NCBI GenBank assembly: GCA_002707025.1
Contig: PALG01000020.1
Location: forward strand, 186,001 to 250,000
From: Flavobacteriaceae bacterium
GTDB taxonomy: Bacteria; Bacteroidota; Bacteroidia; Flavobacteriales; Flavobacteriaceae
DNA: 64,000 nt
Reading direction: 5' to 3'
In this document: positions 57,361-59,911 of the stretch, piece by piece
Position numbering within the stretch: the stretch's first letter is position 1
Layout: each line of letters opens with the position of its first letter
Notes under the pieces: generated by a model
What the model was told of the DNA's origin: nothing
The model's database searches: none
The model's input: the letters and a program-made list of their open reading frames with translations, nothing else
Translations under genes and position numbers: made by a program

Positions 57361-57376
57361 ATCGTAATATTGCAAT
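57361..57376. promoter_or_regulatory. ArsR operator 1, upstream of arsR
   Basis: ATCGTAATATTGCAAT is a near-palindrome located 14 bp before the arsR ATG. It differs in one base from the copy upstream of the next gene. TAATATTG inside it may also serve as a -7 box. Confidence 0.7.
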
Positions 57377-57390
57377 AAATAAATTAAGCA

Positions 57391-57717
57391 ATGGGCGTTA
57401 CCAAGACAGAAATATTTTCCGAAGCACAAAATCATATTGCGTTATTGGCTAAAGCCTTTGCGCATCCCGCGCGAGTTGCCATTTTGCAGCACTTGTTTAA
57501 ACTCGACACCTGTGTGTGTGGGGATTTAGTGGAGGAAATTGGTTTGGCACAACCTACCATTTCGCAACACTTAAAAGAGCTGAAGCAAATAGGGCTTATC
57601 AAAGGAAATGTAGAGGGAACCAGTATTTGTTATTGTATTGATACAGAAGTATGGTCCCAAATGAAAAATACACTTCAAACGTTTTTAAATCAAGATGTAA
57701 ACTCAAATTGTTGCTAA
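57391..57717 (+). CDS. arsR: ArsR-family metalloregulatory repressor
   Basis: A 108-residue winged-helix repressor with AHPARVAILQHLFKLDTCVCGDL. The CVC pair (Cys 41 and 43) lies at the start of the recognition region, the metal-binding arrangement of arsenite-sensing ArsR. The DNA-recognition helix is LAQPTISQHLKELKQIGL (about 54-71). A C-terminal NCC may add a ligand. It is the first gene of an arsenic operon and sits between two nearly identical palindromes, implying autoregulation. Confidence 0.9.
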   Translation: MGVTKTEIFSEAQNHIALLAKAFAHPARVAILQHLFKLDTCVCGDLVEEIGLAQPTISQHLKELKQIGLIKGNVEGTSICYCIDTEVWSQMKNTLQTFLNQDVNSNCC

Positions 57718-57735
57718 AAAAATTTAGTTCGATTA

Positions 57736-57751
57736 ATCGTAATATTACAAT
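57736..57751. promoter_or_regulatory. ArsR operator 2, between arsR and the DUF6428-like gene
   Basis: ATCGTAATATTACAAT is a 16-bp palindrome with two mismatched pairs at most, 14 bp before the ATG at 57766. It is nearly the same as operator 1, at the same distance from its start codon. Confidence 0.75.
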
Positions 57752-57765
57752 TAAAAAATAGTTAT

Positions 57766-58230
57766 ATGAAACTTTCAGAAATTAAAAAACACCTCTCCGG
57801 CTTAGAGGTCATTGGCTTTAAATTACCCAATGGAAATTTAGTCCCTAGTCACTTTCACGTAACGGAAGTTGGAAAAATTGAAAAAAACTTTATCGATTGT
57901 GGCGGCACCGTCCGTAAGGAAAATGTGATCAACTTTCAACTTTGGGAAGCTCATGATTACGATCATCGGCTGCATCCGGAAAAACTGATTCATATTATTG
58001 AATTATCGGAAAAGATATTGGCGTTGGAAGATCACGAAGTTGAAGTGGAATACCAGGGAAAAACCATTGAAAAATACAATGTTGGTTTTGATGGTACGCA
58101 CTTTTTATTAACCTCTAAGCAAACCGATTGTTTAGCAAAAGACAAATGTGGGGTAGCGGAAGTGAAGCCAAAAGTAAAACTTTCAGAGGTGACAAATGGC
58201 TGCTGTACGCCTGGCAGCGAATGTTGTTAA
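57766..58230 (+). CDS. DUF6428-like protein of the ars operon with Cys-rich tail
   Basis: A 154-residue protein of unknown function; from memory it resembles DUF6428, found in flavobacterial ars operons. The body has conserved-looking HFHVTEVGKIEKNFIDCGG and WEAHDYDHRLHPEKL with several His and Asp. The tail carries six or more Cys (DCLAKDKCG, GCCTPGSECC), a plausible arsenite or metal site. It has its own copy of the operator, 14 bp before its ATG. A chaperone, sensor or sequestration role is inference. Confidence 0.75.
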   Translation: MKLSEIKKHLSGLEVIGFKLPNGNLVPSHFHVTEVGKIEKNFIDCGGTVRKENVINFQLWEAHDYDHRLHPEKLIHIIELSEKILALEDHEVEVEYQGKTIEKYNVGFDGTHFLLTSKQTDCLAKDKCGVAEVKPKVKLSEVTNGCCTPGSECC

Positions 58231-58246
58231 TTTAAACTAAGATCAG

Positions 58247-58864
58247 ATGGATTTATACCCCGCCTTGCAAGAATTTATAAAATCTTTGAACTTTCAGGAA
58301 ATTTCGGAAGAAAGAAAAGCAACACTTCAGCCTTTGATGGATTACCTTACCGAAAAGAGGAACGTTGGAGGCCCTATTCGGTTAAATTTTATTTGCACTC
58401 ACAATTCCCGACGCAGCCATTTGTCACAGGTTTGGGCGCAAACCTTAGCACATTACTATGGAATCCAAAATCTCGTTTGTTATTCTGGTGGAACCGAAGC
58501 GACCGCCCTTTTTCCTAAAGTAACGGAAGTTTTACAGGAGGTTGGATTTAGGGTACAGCAGCTTTCCGAAGGAAATAACCCGATATATGGCATTAAATAT
58601 TCCGAGAATGAACCCGCCATCATAGGCTTTTCCAAAGGGATGGATCATGAGTTTAATCCTGTTTCGGCATTTGCAGCCATCATGACTTGCTCCCAAGCCG
58701 ATGAAGGTTGTCCTTTTGTTCCGGGAGCTGAAAAGCGATTTCCTATTACCTACGAAGACCCCAAAGCTTATGACGGAACCCCACTGCAACATGAAAAATA
58801 CCAAGAGCGGAGCCGACAGATAGCTACCGAATTATGCTATGTTTTTTATAACATTAAAGCTTAA
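58247..58864 (+). CDS. arsC: Arsenate reductase of the low-molecular-weight phosphatase type
   Basis: A 205-residue protein with the phosphatase-like P-loop CTHNSRRS (Cys 50 and Arg 56) in FICTHNSRRSHLSQVWAQ. A later CSQADEGCPFVPGAEKRFP (about 147-165) provides the resolving cysteines and oxyanion site typical of thioredoxin- or glutathione-linked arsenate reductases. It is longer than most LMW-PTPs and has an N-terminal helical extension of about 45 residues. It lies between the DUF6428-like gene and the arsenite exporter, which supports arsenate reduction. Confidence 0.85.
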   Translation: MDLYPALQEFIKSLNFQEISEERKATLQPLMDYLTEKRNVGGPIRLNFICTHNSRRSHLSQVWAQTLAHYYGIQNLVCYSGGTEATALFPKVTEVLQEVGFRVQQLSEGNNPIYGIKYSENEPAIIGFSKGMDHEFNPVSAFAAIMTCSQADEGCPFVPGAEKRFPITYEDPKAYDGTPLQHEKYQERSRQIATELCYVFYNIKA

Positions 58865-58867
58865 AAG

Positions 58868-59911
58868 ATGGGCAGGAAGCGCTTAGGTTTTTTAGATAAA
58901 AACCTTACTTGGTGGATTTTTATAGCTATGGGAATAGGTGTAGGGTTGGGGTATTTTTTTCCTTCCATACCCAATACAATCCACTCTTTTAGTAGCGGCA
59001 GTACGAACATTCCTATAGCTTTAGGCCTTATCGTAATGATGTACCCACCATTGGCTAAGGTTAATTATGCTTTACTTCCTAAGGTTTTCAAGAATGTTAA
59101 AATACTTTCAGTTTCTTTAGTGTTAAATTGGTTAATAGGTCCTTTCCTAATGTTTTTATTGGCCATTCTTTTTTTACGGGATTACCCTGAATACATGATT
59201 GGGCTTATCTTAATTGGTTTGGCTCGTTGCATTGCGATGGTTTTGGTGTGGAATGATTTAGCAGAAGGAAGCGCTGAATACGGGGCGGGTTTAGTGGCCT
59301 TAAATAGTATTTTTCAAGTTTTTGCCTACAGTTTTTATGCTTGGTTCTTTATCACGGTATTGCCTCCATTTTTTGGTTTTGAAGGAGCGATTGTTGAAAT
59401 CTCTATTTATACCATTGCAGAAAGCGTTGCCATATATTTAGGAATACCATTTTTGATGGGGATCTTAAGCCGTTGGCTTTTAATAAAATGGAAAGGAGCG
59501 CTATGGTATACTGAAAAGTTCATTCCTACGATTGCACCCTTAACCTTAATAGCCTTGTTATTTACCATAATTGTCATGTTTTCCTTGAAAGGGGAACTCA
59601 TCGTTGAAATTCCCTTGGATGTGGTCATTATTGCAATCCCCCTTCTTATTTATTTTGCTTTGATGTTTTTTATTGGGTTTTTCTTTACGAAGGCGATGGG
59701 AGCACCTTACAATGAAACCGCTTCAGTAGCATTCACGGCAGCTGGAAACAACTTCGAATTGGCCATAGCTGTTGCGATAGCTGTATTTGGATTAAATTCT
59801 GGACAAGCCTTTGCAGGAGTTATAGGGCCATTGGTTGAAGTACCTGCTTTAATATTATTAGTACGTATTGCTTTTTGGTTGAAGAAGAAATATCCTGTGA
59901 GAAGTAGATAA
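58868..59911 (+). CDS. acr3: ACR3-family arsenite efflux transporter
   Basis: A 347-residue membrane protein with ten transmembrane helices. Family motifs include [19 protein letters not shown], the conserved Cys in [16 protein letters not shown] (about residue 120), and [23 protein letters not shown]3 expels arsenite across the inner membrane using the proton gradient. It starts 3 bp after arsC and closes the operon. Confidence 0.93.

Follow-up and report, generated by a model that had tools for sequence, protein, structure and literature searches.

A DUF6428 protein with a cysteine tail shared with ArsM and ArsI, and two types of predicted ars operator, in a Flavobacteriaceae ars operon

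Introduction

In other bacteria, the operator of an autoregulated ArsR repressor is an imperfect palindrome which lies over the arsR promoter. A small protein of an ars operon is ArsD of the E. coli plasmid R773, for which the C-terminal vicinal cysteine pairs C112-C113 and C119-C120 have been described (PMC4562236). In case of Bacteroidota, the promoter consensus is given as TTTG/TAnnTTTG (sigma-ABfr), with 4-5 nt from the -7 element to the transcription start (PMC6847099).

In our study, a stretch of 64,000 nucleotides from a Flavobacteriaceae bacterium (the window) was analysed. It holds an ars operon of a known general kind, in which a DUF6428 protein is tied to arsenic by its context and by a shared cysteine tail. 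A literature search for DUF6428 found no paper naming it, and a search with a 15-base string of the site motif also found no paper. Among the papers listed for ars operators, or for ars operons in Bacteroidota, none dealt with the operator reported here, and among those listed for ArsM and ArsI tails none dealt with the tail.

Results

The ars operon

The four genes of the operon lie on the + strand in the order arsR-DUF6428-arsC-like-ACR3. The arsR gene (57391..57717, +) codes for an ArsR/SmtB repressor of 108 aa with a TCVCGDL motif and the C-terminus NCC, and its product passes the cut-offs for the ArsR-type winged helix (PF01022, 43.6 vs 22 bits; NF033788, 69.2 vs 55). The second gene (57766..58230, +) codes for a protein of 154 aa which matches PF20001 (DUF6428) with 218.7 bits against a gathering cut-off of 28.7, over positions 1-155 of the 155 of the profile. 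The ACR3 arsenite efflux transporter (58868..59911, +, 347 aa) is assigned by TIGR00832 (432.8 bits vs an equivalog cut-off of 282.8), and no arsA was present among the operon genes read. An earlier note on this DNA had placed a cysteine-tailed protein between the repressor and the arsenate reductase, and the DUF6428 gene does lie between arsR and the arsC-like gene; residues 144-154 of its protein read NGCCTPGSECC.

The arsC-like gene (58247..58864, +) codes for an LMW-phosphatase-like protein of 205 aa with the motif CTHNSRRS. This protein falls below the equivalog cut-off of the thioredoxin-type arsenate reductase (TIGR02691, 39.6 vs 174.3 bits) and below that of the low-molecular-weight phosphatase family (PF01451, 21.7 vs 23.2). 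Since it misses these curated cut-offs it is called arsC-like only, and its probable role is taken from its place and from the CTHNSRRS motif. In a related locus, a frame of 301 aa (L157:4152-5054) has a GNAT-like start and an ArsC-like end and appears to be a fusion, judged from the frames only; the GNAT and ArsC genes are separate in L150 and L159.

DUF6428 is widespread and mostly follows arsR

Relatives of DUF6428 are found in 154 of the 199 genomes of the same family. The Pfam family PF20001 is present in 96/395 genomes of the phylum and in 0/14 control genomes. Linkage to the repressor was counted in four samples. In the close genus-wide sample, which draws on genomes of different genera, includes the window and takes two or three loci from a few genomes, arsR stands directly upstream of DUF6428 in 69 of 81 loci, giving 69 distinct pairs. 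In the distant set this holds for 33/34 loci, the set being 34 of 36 loci: L159 duplicates L130, and L155, a locus lacking arsR, is not in it (33/35 with L155 included). The count is 15/20 in the far loci, which were hand-picked from the list of PF20001 matches in the phylum genomes, and 67/80 in the named loci (L038-L117), which are the best 80 of 159 relatives and are thus biased to close relatives. Neither arsC nor ACR3 was found in 9/47 close, 6/19 distant and 14/78 named loci with enough downstream sequence read, so that DUF6428 is not tied to efflux.

The cysteine tail is conserved and shared with ArsM and ArsI

The linker and cysteine tail of DUF6428 comprise residues 128-154 (58147..58227, +). 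The protein ends in CC in 81/81 close relatives of the genus-wide sample and in all 36 distant ones (~30% identity), the latter belonging to a 208-protein set that contains duplicate loci. Hence, the absence of the tail from orthologues, which had been named as the finding that would speak against a role for it, was not observed. In a far group from another class the end is shorter, with CKP and then the final CC, and only C...CC is kept. The first tail pair is a single Cys in many DUF6428 relatives, and the core pattern of the tail is therefore C-x5-CC.

A profile of 27 residues was built from 49 DUF6428 tails, no other protein being included. At E 0.01 it gave 91 matches in 84 of the 199 genomes, which were assigned by hand from open-frame length and coordinates to DUF6428 (78), ArsM methyltransferases (12) and ArsI/CadI (1), with no other kind. 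The best E-values, each for a single genome, were 4.9e-11 for ArsM and 1.2e-8 for ArsI/CadI. At sample loci, the identity of ArsM and ArsI is supported by NF008823 and NF041414, both above cut-off. Moreover, when the Cys motif was removed and the linker alone was searched against 3643 open frames, from loci partly chosen for their tails, ArsM and ArsI ranked first after DUF6428, and the 11 best matches outside DUF6428 (E 0.05 or better) were ten ArsM and the ArsI. Other ArsM proteins, including short-tailed ones, scored poorly with this linker profile, which indicates that the linker is common to a part of ArsM only.

Sixteen ArsM proteins of the family match a tailed ArsM at E <1e-110, and all of them end in a C-x5-CC tail; three weaker methyltransferase matches among those listed do not carry it. 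The operator-like site described below lies upstream of 14 of these 16 genes, an arsR-like frame is present at 11, and a second site before arsM was seen at 2. DUF6428 is present in 6/16 genomes with a tailed ArsM vs 148/183 of the others (Fisher p 0.0004, by a test that ignores kinship among genomes), and ArsM thus tends to stand where DUF6428 is missing. We read the sharing of the tail as probable common descent by exchange between neighbouring genes, with close convergence as a less likely course. The suggestion that the 154-aa protein may handle arsenite gains support from this sharing, and it is kept here as a suggestion.

Two further observations were made on ArsM ends. In L283, L286 and L287, from a distant family of the phylum, an ArsM clustered with arsC-like and DUF6428 genes ends in ACEPGSGCC, a tail of the close-DUF6428 type, while the DUF6428 protein there has only CKP...CC. 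In L338, an ArsM-like protein has a different and longer Cys-rich end.

The core of DUF6428

The AlphaFold2 model shows a confident core (residues ~1-120) and a tail which is predicted to be disordered. Among 40 DUF6428 proteins chosen from the close, distant and far groups, F18, H31, T33, E34, D44, C45, G46, Q58, K73, I77, C122, C153 and C154 are invariant in 40/40. Comparison with the PDB gave no chain at E <=0.001 by Foldseek, a best Z of 2.9 by VIA-align, and no relative at E 10 by sequence; as no solved structure matches, the core gives no functional clue. Among viral models, the best match (E 0.0023, TM 0.44) was to a protein of a Rhodococcus phage for which no function is given. This is a lead only; so weak a likeness of fold speaks neither for identity nor for novelty.

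DUF6428 may itself be an enzyme on trivalent arsenicals, with a catalytic core and a tail which only feeds the substrate, and we regard this as a fair rival although it falls short of an even chance. The invariance of H31, T33, E34, D44, C45, Q58 and K73 would suit a catalytic core, and the occurrence of the tail on two enzyme families, together with the tendency of ArsM to occur in genomes that lack DUF6428, points in the same direction. However, the 154-aa protein matches no family other than DUF6428 in Pfam at E 0.1 and none in NCBIfam, and the PDB comparisons gave neither a fold nor a sequence match.

Two sites before successive genes

Operator 1, ATCGTAATATTGCAAT (57361-57376, +), lies before arsR and overlaps its predicted promoter, and operator 2, ATCGTAATATTACAAT (57736-57751, +), lies before DUF6428 and is of a type that is promoterless in relatives. 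As the earlier note had reported, both 16-bp sites end 14 bp before an ATG (57391 for arsR and 57766 for DUF6428). The same note had proposed a genome search for further copies; in the own genome (3.05 Mb), operators 1 and 2 are the only places with <=1 mismatch, and four places have two mismatches. A mismatch-free site, by a pattern that allows A or G at position 12, is present in 145/199 genomes of the family vs 0/199 for the reversed control, so the site is not due to chance. In the genus-wide sample the site precedes arsR in 68/69 arsR-DUF6428 pairs, with <=1 mismatch in 66.

The spacing of 14 bp, part of what had been called an unusually regular doubling, is not conserved. The distance from the arsR site to the ATG is mostly 12-20 bp and is 14 bp in 7/68 pairs of the genus-wide sample; only at the inner site is 14 bp the commonest distance (20/46). 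The distances from site to site are 372-392 bp and track the arsR length without a clear helical phase, and looping between operators 1 and 2 is not favoured. In L142, L315 and G140:C1:742416-742439, two sites, one on each strand, share 8 bp and form the 24-bp palindrome ATCGTAATATTGCAATATTACGAT.

The site hardly varies before arsR, and it also precedes some DUF6428 and ArsM genes that have no arsR next to them. This gives strong comparative support for both sites being ars operators, to which ArsR would bind.

A predicted promoter element in the first site, as a rule lost from the inner one

Operator 1 contains the predicted -7 promoter element TAATATTG (57365..57372, +), which has 5/6 bases of TAnnTTTG, and transcription is predicted to start at ~57377. 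The arsR copies of the site keep at least 5/6 bases of this element in 68/68 cases. In the inner copies, 5/6 or better is reached in 2/46 when the sites are picked by their outer halves and in 3/47 when they are picked by total match, and the inner copy of the window, TAATATTA, keeps 4/6. At the -33 position, TTG with a spacer of 18-21 is found in 39/68 arsR sites vs 0/46 inner sites; the window itself has a T-run there before operator 1, and not TTG.

The inner site was present in 46 of the 69 pairs, whereas 500 rounds of shuffling gave it in 0.62 pairs on average and in 4 at most; here and in the other shuffles, base composition only was kept and not dinucleotides. Picking by outer halves itself favours conserved halves, so the count was repeated by total match (>=12/16), and the same picture was obtained, with 47/69 pairs vs a shuffled mean of 0.88. 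In L020 the inner site ATCGTAATATAACAAT runs into the start codon; this locus was left out of the 46 and counted in the 47. About a third of the genus-wide pairs have no inner site. Where the gap between the genes is <=33 bp, the site is present in 1/14 pairs (L020), and with a larger gap in 46/55. Among the named pairs, many of which come from Flavobacterium and have short gaps, it is present in 16/65 and missing in 49/65.

The two copies also differ in the way they vary. The arsR copies hardly vary at any of the 16 positions (7 outer and 4 central mismatches). The inner copies keep the outer ATCG and CAAT and drift at positions 6, 7, 10 and 11; when they are picked by total match, their mismatches number 7 over the eight outer positions and 100 over the eight central ones. 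In shuffled sequences the order is the reverse, with 603 outer and 432 central mismatches. The central positions are those which hold the -7 element TAnnTTTG. As the first copy keeps this element and the inner copy does not, the first is of the promoter and operator type and the second of the operator type only. We read the inner copy, from this pattern of conservation, as an operator without a promoter, for which no earlier description was found. The idea of equal twins was thus rejected: of the twin ars operators claimed earlier, the doubling holds in 46-47/69 pairs, whereas the equality does not, the inner copy having as a rule lost the promoter bases. An A7T3 tract (57716..57725, +), which starts in the arsR stop codon, is also conserved ahead of the inner site (columns -20 to -11 in the profile of that site).

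Operator 2 might instead be a second arsenite-inducible promoter, giving the structural genes a transcript separate from that of arsR. It precedes a start codon as operator 1 does, with a similar A-rich leader, and four DUF6428 genes with no upstream arsR do have a true promoter-type site (see below). We consider this unlikely, as the rarity of the -7 element in the inner sites, the lack of TTG at -33 in all 46 and the 4/6 match in the window argue against a promoter at the site itself.

DUF6428 genes without arsR alongside

In nine of the 81 close genus-wide loci, the sequence read shows no arsR upstream of DUF6428. Such DUF6428 genes need a promoter of their own and therefore provide an independent check of the site types. 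In three of the nine (L174, L176 and L203) an exact promoter-type site lies 22-78 bp before the DUF6428 start, and in L215, a locus of the distant set with no arsR upstream, an exact promoter-type site lies 17 bp before it, which makes 4/10 such loci of the genus sample. In L203 the promoter-type site is followed in tandem by a palindromic operator-type site. The remaining six (L188, L193, L202, L207, L210 and L212) have no site within 250 bp of DUF6428. The same holds for L155, which is distant and outside the 34-locus set, and no clear site was found within 250 bp in the named loci L056, L063, L086, L087, L089 and L093, also lacking arsR. This brings to 13 the DUF6428 genes for which the sequence read shows no arsR upstream and no site was found within 250 bp.

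Other places in the genome and plasmids

Of the four places with two mismatches in the own genome, two fall within open frames, and for a third there is no start up to 90 nt away. The fourth (L003, C20:66310) precedes an open frame of 300 or more residues by 18 nt. A wider ArsR regulon in this genome is not supported by the placement of these four sites. The genome has a second ArsR-like gene (L149, 31% identity), and the sequence read around it holds no site of this kind.

The sites also occur on plasmids. A Pedobacter plasmid has the site before arsR (0 mismatches) and before DUF6428 (3 mismatches), and an Empedobacter plasmid has it before arsR (1 mismatch) and before DUF6428 (2 mismatches); no close match was found on a Hymenobacter plasmid. 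In the Empedobacter falsenii plasmid p1681-tetX (L383, 19.7 kb), an arsR-DUF6428-phosphatase-ACR3 operon with both sites adjoins a predicted tet(X).

Discussion

The reading that we favour, by a modest margin over an even chance, is an ArsR-controlled operon with two kinds of operator, in which DUF6428 handles As(III) through its tail. When arsenite is absent, ArsR would cover operator 1 including the -7 element, and initiation would be shut. ArsR would also sit on the promoterless operator 2 and would stop leaked transcription after arsR. Such a roadblock would allow a little ArsR to be made still, with DUF6428, the arsC-like protein and ACR3 kept off, and arsenite would free both operators. 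The inner copy thus probably serves to lock the structural genes a second time, and this lock is dispensable, being absent from about one third of the genus-wide pairs and from 49/65 of the named ones. If this is true, the two operator types show how a self-repressed operon can keep its repressor made while its structural genes are held more tightly off.

In our best reading, DUF6428 would bind or process trivalent arsenic through its tail. It would be a soluble arsenic-handling protein, having a folded core with the invariant His31, Glu34, Asp44 and Cys45, and the flexible tail thiols Cys122 and Cys153-Cys154, together with further tail cysteines, may bind As(III). The tail could then present As(III) to the core or pass it on to a partner, and it would be a portable module which is also carried by ArsM and ArsI. 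A tail for redox or metal chemistry in general, unconnected with arsenic in particular, is improbable. Zn, Cd or Cu could be bound by a CC tail, and the family name ArsI/CadI includes cadmium; however, in 199 genomes the tail profile matches only DUF6428, ArsM and ArsI, and DUF6428 mostly follows arsR.

A wider and more tentative proposal is that the tail of ~27 residues, EKPKVKLSEL...C-x-P-x-[SG]-x-CC, serves as a portable thiol tag for the members of an intracellular arsenite relay under the control of ArsR. DUF6428, ArsM and ArsI, which are of unrelated fold, would have acquired the same tail; As(III) might be passed among the tailed proteins and on to ACR3 or to methylation, and ArsR would control the set through the two operator classes.

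The tail of DUF6428 is common to two unrelated arsenic enzymes, which makes a role in arsenic handling directly testable, and for a protein so widespread in the family (154/199 genomes) and found mostly behind arsR, the tail gives a concrete hypothesis of function. Further, the sharing of the tail suggests that arsenic proteins can have a short binding tag in common.

Comparison with known systems

Like ArsD, DUF6428 is a small protein of an ars operon, and the CC-x5-CC spacing of ArsD is seen in C146-C147 and C153-C154 of the protein in the window. Whereas ArsD has the N-terminal C12, C13 and C18, these have no counterpart in DUF6428, in which the first Cys is C45, and DUF6428 matches no ArsD family profile (Pfam, E 0.1). 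DUF6428 was rejected as an ArsD on account of this lack of a family match and of the N-terminal cysteines.

ArsM (NF008823) resembles DUF6428 in the linker and tail, present in 12 proteins, in the same type of site and in its frequent place after arsR; it differs in being a SAM methyltransferase, unrelated to DUF6428. In case of ArsI/CadI (NF041414), one member (L310) has the DUF6428 tail and follows arsR, and no site matching the pattern used was found at this locus. This family differs from DUF6428 in its glyoxalase-type (VOC) fold, assigned by family, and the likeness is seen in a single example.

In comparison to the autoregulated ArsR operators of other bacteria, operator 1 is likewise an imperfect palindrome over the arsR promoter, whereas here a second copy, which we take to be of a promoterless operator type, lies inside the operon.
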